Program-made: the position numbers and the translations under genes | Assembly: GCF_003687725.1 (NCBI RefSeq) | Contig: NZ_RDOJ01000002.1 | Coordinates: forward strand, 187,249-251,248 | DNA from: Faecalibacter macacae | Lineage (GTDB): Bacteria; Bacteroidota; Bacteroidia; Flavobacteriales; Weeksellaceae | DNA length: 64,000 bases | Direction: 5' to 3' | In this document: positions 30-56,142 of the stretch, piece by piece | How the letters are laid out: each line of letters begins with the position of its first letter | Position numbering within the stretch: the stretch's first letter is position 1 | Notes under the pieces: model-generated | Told to the model about the DNA's origin: nothing | Databases searched by the model: none | What the model saw: only the letters and a program-made list of their open reading frames with translations

Positions 30-1334
30 TTACATAGGTTCTTCACCATTAAATGTAACTATGAACGCATTTCTAAATCCTTTTTTCTGTACTGCTTCTA
101 AAGTTTTTTGAGCCGCATCTAAAGTTTTATCTATTCCAAAATAATAATTGAACATCCCTCCATTCTTAACTCTCAATACATTAGACAATCCGTTAAATCT
201 TTCATCACGCTCTTTATATTTCTTGTTTGAAGACATAAATAAAACGCGATAATTTTTCTGACCTTCTAGTTTTTTATTTAAATCAAACTCGACAATTTCT
301 GCCTTATTGAATCCTTTACGTTTAACTGAATTCAATAAATCATCAGCACGAGACTGTAAATTTGTATTTCCGTAGTAATAAATATATTTATTCCCGTCTT
401 GTACAATTTCTACATCTGTTAATCCTTTTAACTGCGGTGCTGTAACTGTATATTTTAAAGTTGTTTCTAAAAATTTAATTTTTAAGGCTTTTCCTTCTAA
501 TGGTTTTTCAACTGGTTTAGCTTTTGGTTTTTCATCTTCTTCGATAATTCCTGAACGACGATCAAATTCTTTCTTATACTCTTTAAAAGCTTTATATAAA
601 GATTCCGTTGAAGCTTGTTTCCCTTCGTTTGATGCTAAATACGTTCCTTCATCATGATTAGAAATAAAACCTAACTCTACTAAAACTGATGGAGAAGCAT
701 TCCCTCGTAATACGTGAAAATTTGCTTGTTTTACTCCTCGACTATGACGTCCTTGTTCTTTTGTAAACTTTGTTTCTACCAAATCAGCAAAACGAATCGA
801 TTGCTCTTTGTAAGCTGCATTCATAATTTCGAATGCAATTACTGCTTCAGGATCTTTTGGATTAAATTTCTCGTATCGAGCCTGATCTTTTTCTAAGAAA
901 ATAACCGAGTTCTCAGCTCTGGAAACTTCATCCGTTTCACTCATTCTATTTAATCCCATCACGAAAGTTTCTGTTCCGTAAGCAGAAGTGTTTTTAGCAG
1001 AATTACAGTGAACTGAAATAAATAAATTAGCTTTATTATCATTCGAAATTCGAGTTCTTTCATACAATTCTAAGAAAACATCGGTTTTTCTAGTATATAC
1101 TACTTTAACATCTGGATGATTTTTTTCTATTAATGATCCAAATCTTAAAACAACATCTAATGCGATATTTTTCTCTAAATCAGCCACTCCTCTAGCCCCA
1201 GCATCCTTTCCTCCATGGCCGGCATCTAACACAACAACAAAATTGGTCTTTTTTTGTGCAAATGAAACTGAAGAAAAAAGCAACATCATAGCAAAAAATA
1301 GATACTTTTGTATGTTAATCATTTTTAATCTCAT
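30..1334 (-). CDS. N-acetylmuramoyl-L-alanine amidase (Amidase_3 family) with SPOR-like C-terminus
   Basis: Predicted periplasmic peptidoglycan amidase that cuts the MurNAc-L-Ala bond, as AmiA/B/C do in cell separation. An N-terminal signal peptide ends near SVSFAQ. The catalytic domain (about residues 30-260) shows the zinc-site motifs LDAGHGG and SVHCNS and the late VELGF glutamate. After a linker, residues about 310-434 hold two similar stretches (GNKYIYYYG... and GGMFNYYFG...) ending in KKGF, which look like paired SPOR-type repeats. The start could also be the ATG at 1322. It is divergent from lptD with a very short gap, so two envelope genes share one control region. Family call is firm; the exact role in division is inferred. 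Confidence 0.92.
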   Translation of the reverse strand: MRLKMINIQKYLFFAMMLLFSSVSFAQKKTNFVVVLDAGHGGKDAGARGVADLEKNIALDVVLRFGSLIEKNHPDVKVVYTRKTDVFLELYERTRISNDNKANLFISVHCNSAKNTSAYGTETFVMGLNRMSETDEVSRAENSVIFLEKDQARYEKFNPKDPEAVIAFEIMNAAYKEQSIRFADLVETKFTKEQGRHSRGVKQANFHVLRGNASPSVLVELGFISNHDEGTYLASNEGKQASTESLYKAFKEYKKEFDRRSGIIEEDEKPKAKPVEKPLEGKALKIKFLETTLKYTVTAPQLKGLTDVEIVQDGNKYIYYYGNTNLQSRADDLLNSVKRKGFNKAEIVEFDLNKKLEGQKNYRVLFMSSNKKYKERDERFNGLSNVLRVKNGGMFNYYFGIDKTLDAAQKTLEAVQKKGFRNAFIVTFNGEEPM

Positions 1335-1356
1335 ACTGTAGGATTGTTTTTTTGAT

Positions 1357-1364
1357 TAATTTTG
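1357..1364 (+). promoter_or_regulatory. -7 element TAATTTTG upstream of lptD
   Basis: The eight bases match the Bacteroidota -7 consensus TAnnTTTG. I see no clear -33 TTG at the right distance. It overlaps the first possible TTG start of the lptD frame, which argues for a start further downstream. Confidence 0.4.
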
Positions 1365-1394
1365 ACGCAATTTATAAAAAATAAGTTTTTCAAT

Positions 1395-4022
1395 TTGTTT
1401 ACAAACGCATTTAAATCCATATTATTTTTAAGTCCGGCCATGGTTTGTACTATAACTTTTGGTCAGATAACTGAAAATAATACAAATAAAGATAACTCTA
1501 AAATAATTACAGATAGTATAAAATTAGATACTGTTATTAATGTAAAGAAAGAACAATTAGAGTTTATCGTGGATAGGGAGTCTGAAGACGAAAGACATGA
1601 TCTTAAAAAACGTACATCATATTTTTTACGCAATGCTCGCGTAACATATGGTGATATGTCTATATACGCTGATTACATTGAATTGAATTGGAACACTGGT
1701 GATGTGTATGCCGAAGGAAAAAGAGATTCTATCGGTCAGATAATTGAACCTACAAAATTTGTTCAAGGTCAACAAGAATTTACGCAAGATGCATTTAAAG
1801 TTAACTTTAAAACTAAAGTTGGAATTGCATACAATGTGCGTATGACTGAAGGTGAAGGTGTAATTACAGCTGATAAAGTAAAACGTGTAAACGACTCTAT
1901 TATGTATATGAATAGAGCCGAGTATACAACAGATAGTTACTTTAAAGATGGTAAAACGTCAGATAGAGATTATTTCATTCGTACATCTCCAGGGAAACTT
2001 ATAAATAATGGCGAAAATAAAACATTAATTGCAGGTCCTACGCAAATGTTTATTTACGACATTCCTACTCCGTTAGTTGCACCATTTGCATACATACCAT
2101 TAGGTAGTAAAAGATCGGCAGGTATATTAATGCCTAAACCTGGTGAAAGATCTGATTTAGGATTTTTTATTGAAGGAATTGGATTTTACGTTCCTATTGG
2201 GGAATATTGGGATATCAAATTAACTGGTGATATCTATACTAAAGGAAGTTGGGGATTGAGAACTGAAAGTATGTATAAAAAGAATTATAGATACAATGGT
2301 GGTTTTTCTGCAAGTTTCGAAAAAAGAATTACTGGTATTAAAGGCTTAACATCTGGAAATAATACTTTTAACAAAAATGATTTATTCCACGTTTCTTGGA
2401 GACATCAACAAGATCCAAAGTCAAATCCTTACACTAACTTTAATGCTAATGTAAATTTCTCTAGTTCTAAATTTTATCAAAACTCGATTAACACACAGTT
2501 TATTCAAAATAATCAAGTTTATACCAACAATATAAATTCGTCTATTACTTTAAATAAAAAATTTAAAGATTCACCATTCTCTGCTACTTTAAGTATGAAT
2601 CATTCGCAGCAGATGAATCAAAACCAAAATGTAAATACTGAAAATCTAAATAATAACATCACATTAACTGCACCAAGTTTAAATGTTAATATGTCACGAA
2701 TTTATCCTTTTGCTCCAAAAGCGGGTGCTAAGAAAGGATTAATTCAGAATTTAGGTATTGATTACACCTTAAGAGGTGCAAACGAAATTAGAACAAACGA
2801 TAAAGATATTTTCACAAAAACAATGTGGGAAGAACAATCTCGTATTGGAACAAACCAAAGGATGAATTTAACATCTGGTGTTACTTTATTTAACTATTTC
2901 CCTTTTAGTTTTTCATCTACTTACAACGAAGTTTGGAGTGATCGTAAAATCCAAAGAATTTACAATCCTTTAAACCAAAGAACTTCTGATAATGTTATTA
3001 AAGGATTTAACGCTTATCGTACGTTTAATGTTTCAGCTAATATTTCTACTAATGTTTACGGAACATTCTTAAACTCGAACAAAGAAGCCAAAATTCAAGG
3101 AATCCGTCACGTATTAAGCCCTATGGTTGGTTATTCCTTCAATCCTAATTTCCAAGATCCATCTTGGGGGTATTACCAATCGTATGAAGGTGCTAATATG
3201 GAGGAGATTTGGTACAATCAATACGAACAAGCATTATACGGAATTTCAGTCCCTCAGTTATCTAATAGTTTAACATTTAGTTTACTAAATAATTTAGAAA
3301 TGAAAGTTAAAGACGAGAACGACCCTAAAGGTGTGAAGAAAGTTAAAATCTTCGAATCTTTAAACTTCTCGACAGCATATAATTTCTCAGCTACAAGTTT
3401 TAGACTTGCACCAATTACAATGTCTGGTAACACAAGTTTCTTAGACAGAAAAGTAAATGTTCAATTCTCTGGTCAATTTAATCCATACAAATTAATATTC
3501 GAACCTGGAAAAGACACAGGAAAATATATTGATGAATTAGCATTACCTCGTTTAACAAATTTCCAAGTTGGAACAGGATATACATTTGACAATTCAACTT
3601 TTGGTGGAAAAAAATTCGACGAGAAAAATTACTCAAAACGAGGAAGTATTCGTGACGAAAACTTTTACTACGACGATAAAAATTATGCTCATTTTGCTAT
3701 TCCATGGAGTGTTAGCGCTAACTTAGCCTACTCTTACAATAAAGGATCTAATAGAAATGGGAAAAGCACTGGGACAGTTAATTTAAATGGAAAAATTAAA
3801 CCTACACCATACTGGGATATCTCAGCAATGACAACTTACGATTTCATCGAAAATGAATTCACGATGTTAAATCTTAACTTCGAAAGAGATTTACGAAGCT
3901 TTAAGATGTCTTTCAACTGGGTCCCGATGGGTAGATATAAATACTATGGTTTTATGATTCAAATAAAATCATCTATCTTAAGTGACTTAAAATACAACGA
4001 TAGATCACGATCTAGATTTTAA
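1395..4022 (+). CDS. lptD: LPS-assembly outer membrane protein LptD
   Basis: Outer-membrane barrel that inserts lipopolysaccharide into the outer leaflet, the terminal part of the Lpt pathway. After a signal peptide, an OstA/LptA-like periplasmic domain (about residues 40-200, with NARVTYGDMSIYADYIELNW) is followed by the long beta-barrel rich in aromatic/polar alternation, ending SRSRF. At about 875 aa the size fits Bacteroidota LptD. The frame is open from a TTG at 1362, but that codon lies inside a TAATTTTG -7 box, so I prefer the TTG at 1395; an ATG at 1440 would destroy the signal peptide. First gene of an apparent operon with ridA, a membrane protein and pdxA. Function is confident, start is not. 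Confidence 0.88.
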   Translation: MFTNAFKSILFLSPAMVCTITFGQITENNTNKDNSKIITDSIKLDTVINVKKEQLEFIVDRESEDERHDLKKRTSYFLRNARVTYGDMSIYADYIELNWNTGDVYAEGKRDSIGQIIEPTKFVQGQQEFTQDAFKVNFKTKVGIAYNVRMTEGEGVITADKVKRVNDSIMYMNRAEYTTDSYFKDGKTSDRDYFIRTSPGKLINNGENKTLIAGPTQMFIYDIPTPLVAPFAYIPLGSKRSAGILMPKPGERSDLGFFIEGIGFYVPIGEYWDIKLTGDIYTKGSWGLRTESMYKKNYRYNGGFSASFEKRITGIKGLTSGNNTFNKNDLFHVSWRHQQDPKSNPYTNFNANVNFSSSKFYQNSINTQFIQNNQVYTNNINSSITLNKKFKDSPFSATLSMNHSQQMNQNQNVNTENLNNNITLTAPSLNVNMSRIYPFAPKAGAKKGLIQNLGIDYTLRGANEIRTNDKDIFTKTMWEEQSRIGTNQRMNLTSGVTLFNYFPFSFSSTYNEVWSDRKIQRIYNPLNQRTSDNVIKGFNAYRTFNVSANISTNVYGTFLNSNKEAKIQGIRHVLSPMVGYSFNPNFQDPSWGYYQSYEGANMEEIWYNQYEQALYGISVPQLSNSLTFSLLNNLEMKVKDENDPKGVKKVKIFESLNFSTAYNFSATSFRLAPITMSGNTSFLDRKVNVQFSGQFNPYKLIFEPGKDTGKYIDELALPRLTNFQVGTGYTFDNSTFGGKKFDEKNYSKRGSIRDENFYYDDKNYAHFAIPWSVSANLAYSYNKGSNRNGKSTGTVNLNGKIKPTPYWDISAMTTYDFIENEFTMLNLNFERDLRSFKMSFNWVPMGRYKYYGFMIQIKSSILSDLKYNDRSRSRF

Positions 4023-42222: not shown

Positions 42223-42254
42223 AAAAAGGCACTCCAAGAGTGCCTTTACTTTTA
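42222..42254 (+). terminator. terminator after the ABC permease
   Basis: Perfect 10-bp stem AAAGGCACTC / GAGTGCCTTT with CAA loop; T-rich downstream and A-rich upstream, so it may also serve the opposing beta-barrel gene. Confidence 0.88.
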
Positions 42255-42279: not shown

Positions 42280-42927
42280 TTAGAATGAATATCCAACTCC
42301 GAATGTAAACCCATGGTTCTTCGCATCGAAATTAGCGTTACTTTTAAATGTATCTTGTAATCCTAAATAGTATCTAGCACCTACATTTACATTATCTGTA
42401 ATATTATATCCAATACCACCAACAACTCCAAAATCTACTTTTTCTACATTATCAGAGATATCAGTTTTAGTTTCAGAAATAATATTTTCTCCTGCTATAT
42501 TAGTATCAAATTTAGCTTTATTAGAAGCATAAATATTAAAACCTACTTGAGGTCCAACCTCGAAATTAAATCGAGATTCACCTGGGTAAATTTTTAATAA
42601 TACAGGAACTTGAATATAATCTAATGTTGTTGAATTTGAATATGTTTGAGTGATATTTTGAGAATTAATCATCTCATTTTTATACTTCGCTCCAACTCTT
42701 GCATAATTTACCTCTGGCTGAATAGCTAACGTTTGATTAATTGGAATGTGGTAGTACAAACCTGCAGACCATCCTAATTTAAAATCATCATCATTTACAT
42801 CGTCTCCTAAGAAAGACGTAACATTTGCACTTGTTTTAATACCTAATTGAGGTGTCTCTGTTTTCTCTTGAGCATTAACTCCTACCATACCAACTAACCC
42901 TGCTGCTACAAAAAATAACTTTTTCAT
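42280..42927 (-). CDS. PorT-like outer membrane beta-barrel protein
   Basis: A 215-aa exported protein with signal peptide MKKLFFVAAGLVGMVGVNAQ and about eight amphipathic strands, ending in the C-terminal aromatic YSF expected of outer-membrane barrels. LGIKTSANVTSFLGDD and YIQVPVLLKIYPG are typical of the PorT/OMP_b-brl_2 family. The signal peptide is almost identical to that of the barrel gene at 43845-44372, indicating paralogy. It is preceded by a sigma-54-like -24/-12 element rather than a TAnnTTTG box. Probably a small porin or surface barrel; ligand unknown. Confidence 0.85.
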   Translation of the reverse strand: MKKLFFVAAGLVGMVGVNAQEKTETPQLGIKTSANVTSFLGDDVNDDDFKLGWSAGLYYHIPINQTLAIQPEVNYARVGAKYKNEMINSQNITQTYSNSTTLDYIQVPVLLKIYPGESRFNFEVGPQVGFNIYASNKAKFDTNIAGENIISETKTDISDNVEKVDFGVVGGIGYNITDNVNVGARYYLGLQDTFKSNANFDAKNHGFTFGVGYSF

Positions 42928-42964: not shown

Positions 42965-42981
42965 TTCAATTGCTGTGCCAA
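42965..42981 (-). promoter_or_regulatory. sigma-54-like promoter TTGGCAC-N5-TTGAA for the beta-barrel gene
   Basis: On the minus strand TTGGCACAGCAATTGAA places GG and the -12 G exactly at the spacing of the sigma-54 consensus TGGCACG-N4-TTGC; the -12 C is replaced by A. The predicted transcription start lies about 25-30 nt upstream of the start codon. Confidence 0.5.
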
Positions 42982-43033
42982 AAAATGTTAAACATAATAA
43001 AAAGAAATTCAAAAAATTGATTTACAAATAAAT

Positions 43034-43069
43034 AAAAAGTTGGTTATAATTAATTATAACCAACTTTTT
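43034..43069. terminator. perfect 36-nt palindromic terminator
   Basis: AAAAAGTTGGTTATAATT and its exact complement directly follow the 43083-43577 gene on the minus strand, with a flanking T/A tract. Confidence 0.85.
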
Positions 43070-43082
43070 ATTATTATTTATT

Positions 43083-43577
43083 TTAAAAATTATAAGCTAG
43101 TCCTGCTCCAATTGAAGCAACTTGACCTATAGAATATCGAACTCCTTTATAATGTAAATAGAAATTGAAATCATCAGAATAATGATAACCTACTTTTGGA
43201 GTAAAATAATGCGAACCTGAACCATTTTTAGTTTGATTAAATGCATAACCTAAATCAGCAGCAATGTAAAATTTTTTATAAACATCTAATTCAGCTGAAG
43301 CACCTACAAATAAATATTGAAACCCTCTATCCTGAGGTATATGAGATGCTTTATTTAATACAGTATGATCATAACCTATGGAACCACCCACTCTAAAAAA
43401 ATTCTCTATTTTGCCTAAATAACCAACTGAAACTCCATAATTAAAATTAGAATCATTTGAAAGTAATCCTACCGGAACACCTAAATACCCATTTACCTGA
43501 ATTCCAATCTTTTCTCTTTTCTGACCAAAAGAACATGTTGAATATATTAATAATAAAATTAATCCTATTTTTTTCAT
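43083..43577 (-). CDS. small outer membrane beta-barrel protein
   Basis: A 164-aa exported protein with a short signal peptide ending CSFGQ, alternating strands (YGVSVGYLG, FRVGGSIGYDH, FYIAADLGYAF) and C-terminal GAGLAYNF. It resembles the neighbour at 43845-44372 in strand order (IGYDH, ADLGYAF, PKVGY), so the two are likely paralogues. Its upstream region shows neither a sigma-54-like element nor a convincing -7 box. Function unknown; probably a surface barrel. Confidence 0.78.
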   Translation of the reverse strand: MKKIGLILLLIYSTCSFGQKREKIGIQVNGYLGVPVGLLSNDSNFNYGVSVGYLGKIENFFRVGGSIGYDHTVLNKASHIPQDRGFQYLFVGASAELDVYKKFYIAADLGYAFNQTKNGSGSHYFTPKVGYHYSDDFNFYLHYKGVRYSIGQVASIGAGLAYNF

Positions 43578-43787
43578 AACCTAACCTATAAACCGAGTCA
43601 AAAATATTTTTTAAAAAACATTTGATTGACAGATCTTTAATAGATAATTATATGAACCATATATTAAATAAATTATACATTTTATTAATTAGATATTTAC
43701 TCAATTAATAAACGTTTAAATGTGTATTATAAAACATAATCAATAAATTATAATAGAATACCTTATCCGACATTTAAATACTTATAT

Positions 43788-43821
43788 AAAAAAAATAAGA
43801 CTATCCTTTCGGATAGTCTTA
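43788..43821 (-). terminator. terminator of the 43845-44372 beta-barrel gene
   Basis: On the minus strand an 11-bp stem TAAGACTATCC / GGATAGTCTTA with a four-base loop is followed by eight T. Confidence 0.9.
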
Positions 43822-43844
43822 TCATTATTTTAATGAATTTCTAA

Positions 43845-44372
43845 TTAGAATTTGTAAGCAAAACCTACAGAAACTGCATTGAATTTGTAATCTACGTAAT
43901 CATTATTTTCTGGACCTGCACTAATACCTTTATAACCTGCATATAAATCCCAAGTTGCTGCAGAGTAACCAATTTTTGGTTGGTAAAATAAACCACCTTC
44001 AACTCCGTCAGTTGTAGCAAATGCATATCCTAAATCAGCTCCAATAAATAAGTTGTTGTTAAACTCATATTTAGCAGTTGCAGCTAATGGAATAAAACCA
44101 TAATCTTCACCTTTGTTAGTAAAACGCTGTCCTGCAATTACATAATCATAATCTTTACCGATAAAGTGATCGTAACCAACTTTAGCTCCTAACTTGAAGT
44201 TATCTGCTACTGGGTGTAAGTACGCTAAATCAACACCAATATTGAAAGAAGAAACATCTGATGTATCACCAACTGGAATACCTACGTGTACTGTTCCCTC
44301 AACACCTGTTTGAGCATTTACTCCTACTAAACCAACTGCTGCGAAAGCAGCTGCAAAAAATAACTTTTTCAT
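43845..44372 (-). CDS. outer membrane beta-barrel protein
   Basis: A 175-aa exported protein. The signal peptide (MKKLFFAAAFAAVGLVGVNAQ) matches that of the barrel at 42280-42927. The mature part has eight likely strands (VHVGIPVG, FNIGVDLAYL, LGAKVGYDH, FIGADLGYAF, QPKIGYSA, VGFAYKF) with the terminal Phe. Strand order links it to the 43083-43577 protein. It has two candidate promoters: a sigma-54-like element at 44442-44458 and a TAGATTTG box at 44394-44401. Function unknown. Confidence 0.82.
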   Translation of the reverse strand: MKKLFFAAAFAAVGLVGVNAQTGVEGTVHVGIPVGDTSDVSSFNIGVDLAYLHPVADNFKLGAKVGYDHFIGKDYDYVIAGQRFTNKGEDYGFIPLAATAKYEFNNNLFIGADLGYAFATTDGVEGGLFYQPKIGYSAATWDLYAGYKGISAGPENNDYVDYKFNAVSVGFAYKF

Positions 44373-44393
44373 GTTTTCTATAATTTATTTTTT

Positions 44394-44401
44394 CAAATCT
44401 A
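44394..44401 (-). promoter_or_regulatory. -7-like element TAGATTTG upstream of the beta-barrel gene
   Basis: CAAATCTA on the plus strand reads TAGATTTG toward the gene, 21 nt from its start. No -33 TTG at the right distance, so it may be incidental. Confidence 0.3.
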
Positions 44402-44441
44402 TTTTAAAGTAATCTATCATTTTGATTACACTATATACTTT

Positions 44442-44458
44442 TTCAAGTTACGTGCCAA
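44442..44458 (-). promoter_or_regulatory. sigma-54-like promoter TTGGCACG-N4-TTGAA for the beta-barrel gene
   Basis: Minus strand TTGGCACGTAACTTGAA matches TGGCACG-N4-TTGC in every position except the last C. It has the same architecture as the element upstream of the barrel gene at 42280-42927. Confidence 0.55.
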
Positions 44459-49816: not shown

Positions 49817-50662
49817 TTAAACAGTACATATATTCGTATTTGTACTGTTTTTCTTTTTGTACGATTTTGGTATTAAATCTTGTTGTTGGTGCATTTGCAT
49901 CGGTGTTAAATAATAGTTTGACAAATGCGGTCTGAACTCATTATAAATCTCTACGGTTTGTTTGACCAAAATCTTTCTTGTATTCAAATCTACATTAAAT
50001 TTATCAATATCATATTCCTGTTTTAAAATTCCATTGATTCTTTCGGCTATGGCATTCTCATAAGGATCTGATTCTTGTGTCTTACTACAACGTATTTTAT
50101 GCTTTTTCAATAGCTTTTGATAATCATCGGAACAATATTGTAAACCTCTGTCTGAGTGATGAATAATACTCTTCGGGTTTTCTTTTTTCAATGCCATTTT
50201 TAGAGCATTTAAACAAGATGCTGTAGCCAAAGAATCCGACACATCAAAGCCTACGATTTTCTTAGAATAAGCATCGGTTATCAAGCTTAAATAGGCTGGG
50301 TTTTCTCTGTTTCCCAAGTAAGTTATGTCTGATACCCAAACATTATTAGGCTTTTTGTATTGATAATCTTTAATCAAATTTTTATGTTTTTTAAAACGAT
50401 GATACGAATTGGTAGTTTTGTGATAACTTCTTTTGGGAATGATTAACAAATGGTTAGCTCTTAAGAAGTCAAAGAATTTGTCTCTGCCAATTCTTAAATT
50501 TTCAAGTTTCTCTTTCAAAAGAAAATACAGTTTCTTTCCACCCATTTTTGGATGAATCATTCGCAGCTCTGCTACCCAATCCACAACCTGCTGTGCATTT
50601 TGTTGCCGTTTTGCTCTTCGTTTCAAATGACGATAATAAACCTGTCGATCAACCCCGAACAA
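49817..50662 (-). CDS. IS3 family transposase OrfB
   Basis: Catalytic half of the IS3 transposase, 281 aa from a TTG. The DDE residues are present: Asp in WVSDITYLG, Asp in HSDRGLQYCS, and Glu in ENAIAERINGILK; the family-typical integrase core is intact. The frame continues upstream of the TTG through SFSCELFGV without a stop until the slippery site, so the natural product is probably the OrfAB fusion made by -1 frameshifting. Confidence 0.94.
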   Translation of the reverse strand: MFGVDRQVYYRHLKRRAKRQQNAQQVVDWVAELRMIHPKMGGKKLYFLLKEKLENLRIGRDKFFDFLRANHLLIIPKRSYHKTTNSYHRFKKHKNLIKDYQYKKPNNVWVSDITYLGNRENPAYLSLITDAYSKKIVGFDVSDSLATASCLNALKMALKKENPKSIIHHSDRGLQYCSDDYQKLLKKHKIRCSKTQESDPYENAIAERINGILKQEYDIDKFNVDLNTRKILVKQTVEIYNEFRPHLSNYYLTPMQMHQQQDLIPKSYKKKNSTNTNICTV

Positions 50663-50676
50663 TTCACAGGAGAAAC

Positions 50677-51105
50677 TTATGGTTTCTTTTTGTTCCCTTC
50701 GGAAAGATTCGATAGTTCGGGGGGTGAGTTTTTTCGTATATCAATTTGATATTCCTCTTCGGCAAGGTTAATCATCATATCGAAAATAATGGCTTTTTTA
50801 TCAGCCACATAAGCCTGTTTCTCAAGTAAAGCCTTCTGCTTTTGCAAAAGCTTTACTTGGGCTTCAAGCTCCATGATCTTTTGTTCTGGTGACTTTGGCA
50901 TATTAGAAGGCGTTTGGTTCTCCCAATCAAAGGTACCAAATTTTCTGAGCCAACTCACAACTGTGCTTCGAGATTGGATGCCATACTTACGGCAAGCACC
51001 CACAGTAGATAACTCCCCACGCTCGATTTCTTTTACAACACTCAACTTAAAAGACATACTGTAATCTCGCTGAGTACGTTTTACATAATTGCTTCTTTCT
51101 TCCAT
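50677..51105 (-). CDS. IS3 family transposase OrfA
   Basis: A 142-aa DNA-binding half. The N-terminal helix-turn-helix (MSFKLSVVKEIERGEL, GACRKYGI, TVVSWLRKFG) recognises the terminal repeats, and a leucine-zipper-like coiled coil (about 75-100, MELEAQVKLLQKQKALLEKQ) mediates dimerisation. The stop comes five codons after the likely frameshift site. Upstream ATG at 51105 gives MEERSNYVKR. Confidence 0.94.
   Translation of the reverse strand: MEERSNYVKRTQRDYSMSFKLSVVKEIERGELSTVGACRKYGIQSRSTVVSWLRKFGTFDWENQTPSNMPKSPEQKIMELEAQVKLLQKQKALLEKQAYVADKKAIIFDMMINLAEEEYQIDIRKNSPPELSNLSEGNKKKP
50686..50692 (-). promoter_or_regulatory. programmed -1 frameshift site (C AAA AAG) of the IS3 transposase
   Basis: In orfA the codons AAA AAG are followed shortly by TAA. 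A -1 slip on AAG to AAA puts ribosomes into the orfB frame at GAA ACC. The heptamer C AAA AAG is close to the A AAA AAG used by IS3 relatives. Confidence 0.6.
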
Positions 51106-51283: not shown

Positions 51284-52873
51284 TTAACGTGCGAAATATA
51301 ACTTAGAGTTAATTTCGTCACCGTTAGATAAACCAGCTGAAGCTGTTGTCCAGTTCGCTTTGTTTAATGTTTGTTGACCGATTGGGTATCTTACACGTCC
51401 TGGTATATCAGACGCAACTACGTTTCCAGACATTAATGGAGTAAATACATAAGTAGTTCCATCAGGTCTTGTTCCTGTAGCACCTGGCATTAATAAGATA
51501 GTTCCGTTTGGATAACCAGTTCTTCTGTACTCATTCCAAGATTCATCAGAATTTCCTAATAAAGCAATATACTTTTGATTTAAAACGTGCTCTTGAGTAG
51601 CAGCTGGTAATGTTGCAATGAAAGCAGTAATTTCTGCAGAATCAACACCCATTTTCTCCATACTTGCTTTAACACCAGCTTCGTAATTAGCTTGTGACCA
51701 ACCGTTTAATTCAGCTAAAATAAACTCAACCTCAGCGTATTCCATTAATACCTCAGCCTTATTAATTTTAGTATAGTTTGAATTAAAGAAGTTAATTGCA
51801 GACGACGAGAATACAGTTTCAACAGTTGGTAAACCGTAAGGCATACCTGTGTATTTAGTTAAGTCTCTTGATTGAGATTCTGAACCTGATTTAATCTCTG
51901 CAGCAGTTGATCCAATTGGAGCTGCTACTTTAAATAAACGAGGATCTAACCCATAAGAACCTTTCTCACCTTTTAATAATTGAACGAAAGTTCTATTTAC
52001 ATAGAAATCTGTACGATTATCTACATAGAATAATTTCCAAAATGGATTACCTTCTGCATCTGCAGATCCGAACGCGTGCGCTGCATTATCTGCATTAGAT
52101 GTAAATACTCCTGAAGCTAAAGCTTCATTAATATGAGTTTGTGCTGCTGGTAATTTATGTTTAATACGGTTAGCGATTCTTAAACGTAATGAATTAGCAA
52201 ATTTCTTCCATTTTGCAGCGTCACCATCATAAATGTTATCACCAGCTGTAAATACTTTATCTCCTACAACGATTTGATCAGCAGCTGCTTTTAATTCATT
52301 TAATATATCTTTATAAATCTCTTCCTGAGAAGCATATTTAGGATTAGTGTACGTCTCAATTTGTAATGCTTGGAAATCTGGATTATTTCTTTGTCCATAA
52401 GACCAGTAAGGAACATCTCCAAAGTGAGTTACTAAATTATCAAATGTATAAGCTAACATAATACGGCTAGCTGCGATTTGATTTTGGATATTTCCATAAG
52501 CTGCCATTTGACTAGCAGTTGATGGATCCTCTACACGTTGGATAATATCTTTATAGTTATTAGCTGTACGGTATAAGTATGTCCATCCATTTGTTGTTTG
52601 AGTATCTCTATATTGGTATTTATCCTCCTCGATATAGTTATTTTGAGCAGAATATTGCATCCATGGTAAAGACATACGTGCAGACCACCATCCATCACGT
52701 GTATAGTTCATTAAATATCTATTCGCACCATTAAAAATAGTGTAAGTCGGTACGATTTCTGGACTATTTGTATTTTCATTTATAGCCTCTAAGCCATTAT
52801 CACAAGATGTCAAAGTAGTTCCTACAGACACTCCTAATAATGTTAATAAGACTAATTTATTTATAACTTTCAT
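51284..52873 (-). CDS. SusD/RagB family nutrient-binding lipoprotein (SusD-like_2)
   Basis: A 529-aa outer-membrane lipoprotein with lipobox TLTSCDN (Cys about residue 24). The TPR-rich core, the WWSARMSLPWMQYSAQ aromatic stretch near the N-terminus and NSDESWNEYRRTGYPN near the C-terminus are typical of the SusD-like_2 (PF12771) group. It captures substrate at the cell surface and sits as a lid on its SusC partner, encoded 12 nt upstream. Substrate unknown; PF12771 pairs include peptide importers as well as glycan importers, and no hydrolase gene is adjacent. Confidence 0.92.
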   Translation of the reverse strand: MKVINKLVLLTLLGVSVGTTLTSCDNGLEAINENTNSPEIVPTYTIFNGANRYLMNYTRDGWWSARMSLPWMQYSAQNNYIEEDKYQYRDTQTTNGWTYLYRTANNYKDIIQRVEDPSTASQMAAYGNIQNQIAASRIMLAYTFDNLVTHFGDVPYWSYGQRNNPDFQALQIETYTNPKYASQEEIYKDILNELKAAADQIVVGDKVFTAGDNIYDGDAAKWKKFANSLRLRIANRIKHKLPAAQTHINEALASGVFTSNADNAAHAFGSADAEGNPFWKLFYVDNRTDFYVNRTFVQLLKGEKGSYGLDPRLFKVAAPIGSTAAEIKSGSESQSRDLTKYTGMPYGLPTVETVFSSSAINFFNSNYTKINKAEVLMEYAEVEFILAELNGWSQANYEAGVKASMEKMGVDSAEITAFIATLPAATQEHVLNQKYIALLGNSDESWNEYRRTGYPNGTILLMPGATGTRPDGTTYVFTPLMSGNVVASDIPGRVRYPIGQQTLNKANWTTASAGLSNGDEINSKLYFAR

Positions 52874-52885
52874 AACTAATTAGAA

Positions 52886-55800
52886 TTAAAATTGTAATTT
52901 AAGGTTCATACCATAAGTTCTAGTTGAAGGTAAAGATCCACCTTCTAAACCTTGAACGTTACCACTTCCTCCTGAAGCTTGTTCTGGATCGATATGTTTA
53001 TTATCTAATCCCCAAGTTCCTAAGTTTCTACCGAATGCAGAGATTACTACATTAGCAAAAGGTCCTCTGAATTTTTCTGGGAATGAATAAGATACCGTAA
53101 CCTCTCTTAACTTGATGTAATCAGCATCAAATACGTTTTGAGATGTTGGTCCTGCATAATAGTGTCCGAAATATGAATAAGCTGAAACATTAGTATCATT
53201 TTTTGTTACATTAGAAACAGTATATGTACCATCTCCATTGTTTACAACTGACCCTTTAACTCCATCAACTACAATCCCAGTCTCACGAATACCATTTGCC
53301 GCAGTTTCTTCTAACATACCTGAATACATACCAAACATATTAGTTACAGAGAAGTATTTACCTCCTTGTTGAACATCTACTAATGCAGATAAACTTACAT
53401 TTTTGTATGTAAAACTATTACGGATACCCATATTCCAATCTGGAATAATTGAACCTAAATTTTTAACTCCTGATGATAAATATAATCCATTAGCGCCTAC
53501 AACTTTATTTCCGTCAGCATCATAAATGAAATCAGTACCTCTAATTTGTCCATATTTCTCACCTACTGCAGCTACTAAAGTTGCTTTAAATGGAGCTGAT
53601 CCAATTGTAAGAGTTTCTAAATCACCGTATAATTCTGTAATTTCATTATCATTCTTAGAGAAGTTAACATTTACACCCCATTCGAAGTCATTTGTTCTAA
53701 CTGGAACGATGTTAACCATTGCTTCAATACCTTTGTTTACAGCCTTACCAGCGTTTAACATTTTTGATGTCACACCAGTTTCTGCACCCATTTGTACACC
53801 CATTACTAAATCAGAAGTTTCTTCTCTATAGTAAGTCACGTCAAAACCAAAACGGTTTTTGAACATTTGCATCTCAAGACCAACTTCAAAAGCTTCTTTA
53901 GTTTCTGGTTTTAAGAATTGATTCTTTTTAGATAAAGATGTTAAGAAATAAGGATCACCAATAAATGTAGAACCATTAAATGCATTGTTTTCGTAAACAT
54001 CTTTAATTTGTTGTATTGGTGCATCATTACCTGTTTTAGACCACCCAGCTCTAATCTTACCAAATTTTAACCATTGAGCATTAACTAATTGAGAGAATAC
54101 TAACGATCCTGTTACAGATGGATAGAAGAATGAGTTGTTGTCAACTGGTAAAGTTGAAGACCAATCGTTACGTGCTGTAGCTTCTAAAAAGAAAGTATCC
54201 ATGAATCCAAAAGATGCACTAGCAAAAACTGAATTTACACGTCTCTTCCATTTATTACTTGTAATTGAAGCTTGTTGAGCAGAGTTATTAATAGTATATA
54301 AACCTGGTACAATGAATCCACCATTTGTATTTGCTGATAAAGAAGTATACGTTTCGTGTCTTCTATTTACCCCTGCAAATGCATTAATACTAAAATCTCC
54401 CCATTTCTTGTCTAAGTGTAAACGACCTTCGTAGTTCATCTCAGTTTTATCACGAGTTGATTCTGAAAATCCAGCCTGAGCTTGAGATCCTTCTGCAACA
54501 ATTGAAGAAATATTTAATGTAGTGTTATCACCATAAATATTACCTACCGCGTATAATCCTGGTAAGATGTCGTATTTTAACTCAAAGTTTCCGTAAAAAC
54601 GGTCACGTTGATCTTTTGATGTGTTTTCGTATAAAATCCAGTATGGGTTATCTGAATATTTAGGAGTTGCATTATTCCAAGCAGTACGGTTCCAAGATTT
54701 TTGCTCTCCAGTAGAAGTTTTATAGTTTCTTAAACGACCATAATCTAATTGAACTTGTCCCCATTGATATAATTTTTGTGGAATTGAGTTATCACCATAT
54801 CCGAACTCTGGACGATTAAATCCATTTGTTCTTACATAAGTAATTCCTCCTTTTGCAGTTAATTTATCATTAAATTTTGTTGATAAATTTAAGTTTGCTG
54901 TTGTTCTCTTTAAACTTGAATTTGGTAAAATACCAGACTGATCTAAGTGAGATAAAGACATACGTGCTGATGTATTCTCATAAGATTTAGAGAAAGACAC
55001 AGAGTTTGTGTAAGCAATACCTGTTTTGTATAAATCTTTGTAACTCTTATTTGGTGTAGTCCAAGCTCTTGGAGTTAAATAATTTGAAGGATCTTCTAAA
55101 TCAAAAGCATCCCAATGTAAAACTTGTTGTCCGTCTAAACGAGGTCCCCAAGACTCATCAGCACCGTAATCTACAATACTAAAGTCTCTACCACCAATAT
55201 TTATTTGTTGGAAAGTTTCTTCAAATCCACCACCATACATCTGCTGTAATTTTGGTTGAATGTTCGTAGATTCGAAAGCAACACCTGTATTAAAAATAAT
55301 TTCGTCTCTACCTTTTTTAGCAGATTTTGTCGTGATCATAATTACACCATTATTCGCACGAGACCCGTATAATGCAGCAGCAGGACCACCTTTTAATACG
55401 TTTACAGTTTCTACATCATCTGGATTGATATCAAATGATCCATCTCCATAATCACGTCCACCTGAACCTGATTGTGTACTTGAAGCATTATAGTTTGAAT
55501 TATCCATTGGTACACCATCAACTACAATTAATGGTCTGTTTTCTCCTGTGATAGATCCAATACCACGTAAAACGATACGTGCAGAAGTACCTAATCCAGA
55601 AGGAGCCGTAATCTGAGCACCAGCTACATTACCTGATAAAGATTGTAATGCATTAGTTCCACGACCTTGAGAAATGATATCTCCTTTTACTTCTTGAGAA
55701 GCATATCCTAATGATTTTTTATCTCTTGTAATACCTAAAGCCGTTACAACTGCTTCTCCTAATGCAATATCTTCAGACGGTGCAAAAGAAACCGTATAAG

Positions 55801-56065
55801 AAGTTTGATCACCAACTACAATAGTTTGAGTAGGAAGCCCCATAGATTCTACGAAAAGATAGTCTCCTTTGTTTGCTTCCACAGAGAACGCACCGTTCTC
55901 GTCAGTGTAAACTTCTTTACCTCCAGAAGTTTTTACAACTGCGTCCATTACTGGAAGACCATCTGCGTCTTTAACAACTCCAGTAACAGTTTTTTCTTGA
56001 GCATACATAGAAGCACTTAATAGTAAACCTCCAAGTACAAACAAGTTTTTTAAATTTCTCCTCAT
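52886..56065 (-). CDS. SusC/RagA family TonB-linked outer membrane protein
   Basis: A 1059-aa TonB-dependent outer-membrane transporter. A signal peptide ending SASMYAQ is followed by the N-terminal CarboxypepD-like beta domain (about 22-100, GVVKDADGLPVMDAVVKT). The SusC plug follows, with SLSGNVAGAQIT, LRGIGSI and PLIVVDGVPMDN, then VNVLKGGPAAALYGSRANNGVIMITTK and the 22-strand barrel. It forms the transport half of a SusCD pair for an unidentified nutrient. No TonB box-independent regulation (sigma/anti-sigma) genes are next to it. It is divergent from rnhB with a short shared control region. Confidence 0.95.
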   Translation of the reverse strand: MRRNLKNLFVLGGLLLSASMYAQEKTVTGVVKDADGLPVMDAVVKTSGGKEVYTDENGAFSVEANKGDYLFVESMGLPTQTIVVGDQTSYTVSFAPSEDIALGEAVVTALGITRDKKSLGYASQEVKGDIISQGRGTNALQSLSGNVAGAQITAPSGLGTSARIVLRGIGSITGENRPLIVVDGVPMDNSNYNASSTQSGSGGRDYGDGSFDINPDDVETVNVLKGGPAAALYGSRANNGVIMITTKSAKKGRDEIIFNTGVAFESTNIQPKLQQMYGGGFEETFQQINIGGRDFSIVDYGADESWGPRLDGQQVLHWDAFDLEDPSNYLTPRAWTTPNKSYKDLYKTGIAYTNSVSFSKSYENTSARMSLSHLDQSGILPNSSLKRTTANLNLSTKFNDKLTAKGGITYVRTNGFNRPEFGYGDNSIPQKLYQWGQVQLDYGRLRNYKTSTGEQKSWNRTAWNNATPKYSDNPYWILYENTSKDQRDRFYGNFELKYDILPGLYAVGNIYGDNTTLNISSIVAEGSQAQAGFSESTRDKTEMNYEGRLHLDKKWGDFSINAFAGVNRRHETYTSLSANTNGGFIVPGLYTINNSAQQASITSNKWKRRVNSVFASASFGFMDTFFLEATARNDWSSTLPVDNNSFFYPSVTGSLVFSQLVNAQWLKFGKIRAGWSKTGNDAPIQQIKDVYENNAFNGSTFIGDPYFLTSLSKKNQFLKPETKEAFEVGLEMQMFKNRFGFDVTYYREETSDLVMGVQMGAETGVTSKMLNAGKAVNKGIEAMVNIVPVRTNDFEWGVNVNFSKNDNEITELYGDLETLTIGSAPFKATLVAAVGEKYGQIRGTDFIYDADGNKVVGANGLYLSSGVKNLGSIIPDWNMGIRNSFTYKNVSLSALVDVQQGGKYFSVTNMFGMYSGMLEETAANGIRETGIVVDGVKGSVVNNGDGTYTVSNVTKNDTNVSAYSYFGHYYAGPTSQNVFDADYIKLREVTVSYSFPEKFRGPFANVVISAFGRNLGTWGLDNKHIDPEQASGGSGNVQGLEGGSLPSTRTYGMNLKLQF

Positions 56066-56142
56066 CTGTTAAAACATTTTTAAAACTTATATAAACTTAT
56101 GATAAAGTTTAACAAGAACAAATTTTTTTTAAAACAAAATGT

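Follow-up and report, generated by a model that had tools for sequence, protein, structure and literature searches.

We analysed a stretch of 64,000 nucleotides of the Faecalibacter macacae genome (contig NZ_RDOJ01000002.1, positions 187,249 to 251,248; hereafter the window), in which two small outer-membrane beta-barrel genes follow the same motif, resembling the -24/-12 promoter of sigma-54 (RpoN). The analysis suggested a sigma-54 envelope response that includes a small RNA (sRNA) of about 70 nt, which would stop the synthesis of a SusC-like outer-membrane protein (OMP). We consider this reading as a whole to be likely, and the promoters and the sRNA are well supported by the sequence comparisons.

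A conserved -24/-12 motif precedes two barrel genes

Barrel 1 (175 amino acids, Pfam OMP_b-brl; 43845-44372, minus strand) and barrel 2 (215 amino acids, Pfam OMP_b-brl_2; 42280-42927, minus strand) were reported by the first-pass annotation to share nearly the same signal peptide and to lie downstream of two 17-mers of the form TTGGCACN5TTGAA on the minus strand. Both points were confirmed. The 17-mers, TTGGCACGTAACTTGAA before barrel 1 (44442-44458) and TTGGCACAGCAATTGAA before barrel 2 (42965-42981), were the sole exact matches within the window, and the predicted +1 would be near 44431 and 42954, respectively. When up to two mismatches were allowed, the window contained 6 matches compared with 8.2 expected. 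Because this is the chance level, the window alone is little proof.

The comparison of genomes was more informative. The pattern TTGGCACN5TTGNA was matched 48 times in 13 genus genomes, compared with 10 matches for the reversed pattern, and 21 times versus 2 in 8 other genomes of the order. In the upstream alignments of the barrels from the 13 genus genomes, TTGGCA[CT]N5TTG was the only clearly conserved block. The GG at -24 and the G at -12, at the fixed spacing TGGCAC-N5-TTG, were found before barrel 1 in 13/13 genomes and before barrel 2 in 12/13, the exception being G011, which has two barrel-2-like open reading frames (ORFs), both without the motif. The exact RpoN spacing proposed for GG and G was therefore upheld, with TTGGCAN6TTG invariant in the barrel orthologs. 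A barrel homolog in a genome of another family (G015) also carried TTGGCACATCATTTGAA 30 nt before its start.

The A in place of C at -12, pointed out as a departure from the consensus, is present in both motifs but is not an oddity. Among 39 barrel and sRNA promoters, which had been preselected for TTGGCAN6TTG, the base after TTG was A in 32, G in 3, T in 2 and C in 2, and TTGA is the local -12 form in this genus. The dnaK, grpE and lon promoters of the same genome likewise do not have C after TTG. In known sigma-54 promoters this C is frequent, not absolute. An altered -12 contact of RpoN gave no explanation for TTGA, since the arginine corresponding to K. pneumoniae R383 is conserved. Collectively, the promoters are very probably of the sigma-54 type, and RpoN would be the factor that uses them and sets the predicted start sites.

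RpoN, its activators and the predicted regulon

The first-pass annotation proposed a check for rpoN and enhancer-binding protein genes, and both were found. The rpoN gene is present in the genome of the window and in all 21 genomes when 20 relatives are included. Across a sample of 246 genomes of the order it was detected in 232, and in 191/192 of those with at least 90% completeness and at most 5% contamination; 13 of the 14 genomes without a match are less complete than that threshold. The DNA-binding RpoN box ARRTIAKYRE is intact in the RpoN of this genome. As a separate observation, many genomes of 0.3-0.6 Mb (family f16) retain rpoN, though most regulators would be expected to be lost from them, and the 0.3-Mb genome G247 has no rpoN.

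Transcription by sigma-54 demands an ATP-driven activator, and two strong PF00158 enhancer-binding proteins were found in the genome. Activator 1 consists of an AAA+ domain and a Fis-type helix-turn-helix (HTH) without a receiver, and stands in an operon with LptE; the likely operon (L085 2775-6067, minus strand) comprises a miaB-like gene, this activator and LptE, a lipopolysaccharide assembly protein. Activator 2 (L084 3948-5132, plus strand) is NtrC-like, with a receiver and an AAA+ domain and no match to a DNA-binding domain or HTH, and may act from solution. Four weaker PF00158 rows were set aside as probably other AAA+ proteins; the PF00158 search also gives matches in 14/14 control genomes.

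The looser pattern TTGGCAN6TTG was not enriched overall in this genome (27 matches versus 25 for the control). It was told apart from the control solely by the position of its matches: 14/27 were intergenic compared with 0/25 (Fisher p = 1.4e-5). Of the genome-wide scan and the worry about random occurrence in coding DNA, the intergenic bias stood and an overall enrichment did not. The 14 intergenic matches preceded the two barrels, dnaK, lon, and genes for a SIMPL-domain protein, DUF3108, DUF1232, DUF6702, a protein with four transmembrane segments, a lipoprotein-like gene without a Pfam match and a PRA-PH gene; the others were a small ORF (L100), the sRNA and a locus at which no gene was evident (L105). 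The grpE gene is also behind the motif and was scored as coding owing to an upstream ATG.

According to the partly consulted account of Flavobacterium psychrophilum, sigma-54-type promoters were mapped before dnaK, grpE-dnaJ and lon, and the regulon (motif SM4) has -24/-12 promoters before these genes, groESL and genes for exported proteins (PMC9723704). The interpretation that RpoN is involved is supported because our genome contains rpoN and two activators, and because the motif, with its -24/-12 spacing, precedes dnaK, grpE and lon as in that species. The small RpoN regulon for envelope proteins that had been proposed was right as to its envelope members and to the exclusion of a third barrel; it was too narrow in that chaperones, a protease, other exported proteins and an sRNA join the two barrels.

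A probable small RNA behind the same promoter motif

One intergenic match (L007) lies outside the window. At this place no gene reads on from the motif; instead, about 70 nt and a terminator follow, and the sRNA gene was placed at G000:C45:113737-113812 (plus strand). The predicted RNA consists of a hairpin, a mostly unpaired linker and an intrinsic terminator (fold z -3.6). The element was found in 14/14 genus genomes with the promoter before each, and, again with the promoter, in Vaginella and Weeksella massiliensis records. The loci in records of Empedobacter, Faecalibacter, Chishuiella and Algoriella were identical, over the compared stretch, to those of several genus genomes, which places the genome in this Weeksellaceae lineage; the locus of G012 equals that of Faecalibacter rhinopitheci.

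The alignment of 16 sequences contained an invariant block of 42 columns that runs from ATAAGATTTAG to GTTAATTT. The conserved block starts at the +1 that the motif predicts: the distance from TTG to TAAGATTTAG was 16-18 nt in the 16 sequences, and the bases between them were poorly conserved. In the terminator, three pairs had changes on both sides with the pairing retained. The linker is conserved and mostly unpaired, as expected of a seed, with 2-3 seed bases paired in some predicted folds. A consensus-fold helix that joined promoter columns with the seed was excluded from the model, the promoter being expected outside the transcript.

We then found that the element is retained beyond the genus. 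A covariance model matched 50 of 197 family genomes at E <= 0.01, and promoter and seed could be read in 29 genomes (14 of the genus, 3 of g102, 6 of g88, 4 of g37 and 2 of g96), including one, L218, in which the promoter's first base is C. The linker TCCTCATGTGTTA and the promoter were retained in genera g102, g88, g37 and g96, whereas the hairpin and terminator sequences were altered outside g1 and g102, to a partial extent in g88 and completely in g37 and g96; in the examples folded from other genera, the plan of hairpin, linker and terminator forms again. Because TCCTCATGTGTTA and the promoter stay while the hairpin and terminator sequences change, the linker shows the signature expected of a seed that selection maintains. 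Weak matches in g10, in g99 and at another position of the own genome (L223, L221 and L225), with neither promoter nor seed, were dropped. Second places in G313 and G295 (L219 and L220) contain CUCAUAUGUU with an unclear promoter and were not counted, nor were weak covariance matches without inspected alignments (such as L226 and L228-L232).

Searches with single sequences returned little. At the gathering score of Rfam 15 no family was matched: L049 gave none, and the best row for L109 (301 bases) had an E of 0.024 and 22 bits, compared with a cut-off of 50 bits. BLAST of the sRNA against 60 genomes of the order gave a full-length match in the own genome only. Nine other rows (7 genomes; 26-36 nt, E 1e-4 to 0.007) were judged to be chance, as was an exact 18-mer without a promoter in a Bacteroidales metagenome-assembled genome (L157). 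In summary, the conservation, folding and promoter evidence indicated that the sRNA is almost certainly real.

The start of a SusC-like gene as the predicted target

The window contains a gene for a SusC-like TonB-dependent OMP of 1059 amino acids (52886-56065, minus strand). The sRNA linker is predicted to pair with TTAACAGATGAGGAGAA (56056-56072, minus strand), which spans the start codon (56065-56063). This start gave the best duplex among 53 starts of the window (-19.6 versus -14.6 kcal/mol for the next). It also ranked first of 406 starts after 20 more stretches of this genome were included (next -16.2, median -7.1). When 204 starts were ranked, drawn from the window and from sampled parts of 12 other genus genomes, the top 11 were 11 SusC orthologs (-19.6 to -17.0), so that the pairing was retained in 11/11 orthologs found.

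The coding sequence around the site was also constrained. In SusC codons 2-9, 8/8 sites were identical in 9 sequences, compared with 14/33 in neighbouring genes (p = 0.004), and codons 2-8 were identical in all 11 sequences. Over the first 12 codons, 8/11 sites were identical, compared with 25/227 across the rest of the gene (11 sequences). These results lead us to lean towards SusC as a real target of the sRNA, which would act as a repressor. As a side observation, the antisense strand of the sRNA (L171) reads MRTKFTLLNLILLRYFN, which resembles the SusC start; an inverted copy of that start may have given rise to the sRNA.

Proposed mechanism

In the proposed circuit, one of the two enhancer-binding proteins would be switched on by some signal and RpoN polymerase would transcribe the regulon; the LptE-linked activator would be a natural candidate for the sensor of outer-membrane trouble. 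The output would comprise the two small barrels, the products of chaperone and protease genes, further exported proteins and the sRNA. The sRNA would expose its mostly unpaired linker UCCUCAUGUGUUA, which would pair over the start codon of the SusC mRNA (target TTAACA.ATGAGGA) and block its translation. The net effect would be that small barrels and chaperones are made while the synthesis of a large TonB-dependent OMP is cut.

Alternative explanations

Several observations count against a sigma-54 circuit with SusC as its target, and they are weighed here with the other explanations that they favour. Among the intergenic motif matches, the histidine-pathway PRA-PH gene and the place without a clear gene (L105) lie off the envelope theme. 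The motif might be the site of another factor, an extracytoplasmic function (ECF) sigma factor or a transcription factor, that merely resembles a -24/-12 promoter. Such a factor would fit the missing GC doublet at -12, with C after TTG absent in 37/39 promoters, and the absence of a visible conserved activator site within the 120-160 bp upstream of the barrels or the sRNA. We nevertheless regard this explanation as improbable: GG and G are invariant at the exact sigma-54 spacing, the motif precedes dnaK, grpE and lon, which are known sigma-54-type genes in a relative, nearly every good genome of the order has rpoN, and the conserved part of the sRNA sets in at the +1 expected for a -24/-12 promoter. 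A slightly less probable explanation is that housekeeping promoters are used and the shared motif is incidental, barrel 1 being transcribed from the TAnnTTTG box TAGATTTG (44394-44401) or, alternatively, from a sigma-70-like TTGGCA-N17-TATAGT. The box fits the Bacteroidota -7 element, the TTGGCA/TATAGT pair scored 10/12 in a consensus scan, and a second promoter could coexist with the first. However, neither TAGATTTG nor TATAGT is kept in the orthologs, in which TTGGCAN6TTG is invariant; the transcription start downstream of TAGATTTG, raised by the first-pass annotation as an alternative, is disfavoured by the same lack of conservation.

The choice of the target is less secure. The sRNA could be real and driven by sigma-54 while its seed serves other starts, for example those of other OMP genes, with SusC not a target or not the main one; we give this possibility substantial weight but less than SusC itself. 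In the window, 13/1000 shuffled seeds reached the SusC energy or better, so the energy alone is modest evidence. The sequence WAACACATGA had 13 non-self matches in the own genome, of which five were at other ORF starts (L160, L163, L166, L167 and L169) with no clear theme. No SusC ortholog was found within the sampled stretches of G004 and G011, and 2/11 ortholog frames were short (351 and 740 amino acids). Among 692 starts sampled from 35% of G294, a genome of another genus, no SusC had such a start, and the best candidates differed, including DUF6029, a TonB-receptor-like gene and Omp28; complementarity of the seed to an OMP start has therefore been found for one SusC in one genus. Against these points stand the first rank of SusC among 406 starts, the 11/11 orthologs and the frozen synonymous sites. 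It is very improbable that the conserved intergenic element encodes a short peptide or serves as a DNA site rather than being an sRNA. Its opposite strand does carry a 17-codon frame, but the element has a promoter on one side and a terminator on the other, the stem is altered yet formed again in other genera, and the conserved linker is mostly unpaired.

In G294, we also observed that divergent genes for DUF6029 and Omp28 (L237 1-435, minus strand, and 1007-2128, plus strand) both have starts with TTAACAC..ATGA, complementary to the seed.

Tandem arrays and other possible sRNAs

In genera g94, g86 and g96, sigma-54-type RNAs of the same plan were found with different seeds. Arrays of promoter, hairpin, seed and terminator comprised 4 units at L215 296-1020 (plus strand) and 3 units at L217 200-540 (plus strand). 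At L216 356-2602 (minus strand) there were about 10 units, based on 10 matches in 2.7 kb of which 3 alignments were inspected. We slightly favour the view that Weeksellaceae have a family of sigma-54-driven sRNAs of one plan (hairpin, exposed anti-start-codon seed and terminator) that shut off OMP translation, with the seed near-fixed in some genera and arrays of 3 to about 10 units with other seeds elsewhere; such a family would be a Bacteroidota answer to the sigma-E sRNAs.

A further element was observed in G015 (L048 1388-1517, minus strand), where TTGGCACACTGTTTGTA follows a pgk-like gene and is itself followed by about 85 nt and a terminator-like stem. It is possibly an unrelated sigma-54-driven sRNA.

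Surroundings of the barrel and SusC-like genes

Terminator-like hairpins were detected right after barrel 1 (43794-43823, minus strand) and 3' of barrel 2 (42225-42247, minus strand). Since one follows each gene, the two barrels are probably transcribed separately as monocistronic units. The closest barrel-1 sequences were those of G005 (97%) and G012 (85%). The third barrel-like gene (164 amino acids, no Pfam match; 43083-43577, minus strand) lacked the motif over the 180 bp preceding its start and does not belong to the regulon; 4/13 genus genomes were found to have an ORF at this position. A SusD-like partner gene (51284-52873, minus strand) adjoins the SusC-like gene. Downstream of it, two ORFs (49820-51105, minus strand) resemble, by eye, an IS3-type transposase pair.

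Relation to known systems and significance

The circuit would work like the sigma-E/RybB/MicA system as a sigma-54 counterpart of it, without being a member. RybB and MicA, in the part of the literature consulted, are short sRNAs driven by an envelope-stress sigma factor that pair near OMP mRNA starts (PMC1804206). Like them, the predicted sRNA is a short intergenic RNA with a putative stress promoter of its own and an intrinsic terminator. It differs in that its promoter is of the -24/-12 type instead of being sigma-E dependent, in that RpoN belongs to another sigma class with an ATP-driven activator, in its phylum and in that its repression is predicted; the Rfam search gave no sequence relation to RybB or MicA. 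FoxJ of Fusobacterium nucleatum, as described in the portion of its report available to us, is a sigma-E-dependent sRNA and extends such envelope circuits beyond the enterics, but it involves sigma-E, not sigma-54, and an mRNA activation activity is described for it (PMC11005410).

The nearest system is that of F. psychrophilum. In the consulted portion of that study, the SM4 regulon includes one putative sRNA, Rfp36, which is the sole precedent that we found for a sigma-54-driven sRNA in flavobacteria (PMC9723704). The LptE operon of that species also has a sigma-54 activator, but under another motif, SM5, and Table 2, itself a selection, names no small barrels of this kind (PMC9723704). Comparative analyses, in the parts consulted, tie sigma-54 to the bacterial exterior and report an enrichment of chaperones in the set of genes predicted to depend on sigma-54 in Flavobacteriia; neither the barrel pair nor the sRNA was met in those parts (PMC3162934, PMC12316311). 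Within the open-licence literature, a search aimed at RpoN-dependent sRNAs returned a single paper, which concerned Enterobacteriaceae. Among the matches listed there for Bacteroidota and Weeksellaceae, no title matched this sRNA, which may be described elsewhere, and the Bacteroidota sRNA papers among the matches listed mostly concerned gut Bacteroides.

To our knowledge, the sensing and relief of OMP stress in Bacteroidota are poorly understood. The circuit proposed here is compact: its sRNA and target site are defined, its two barrels would be induced together, and it can be tested directly. If true, it would mean that the logic of sigma factor, sRNA and OMP has been assembled with a different sigma class.
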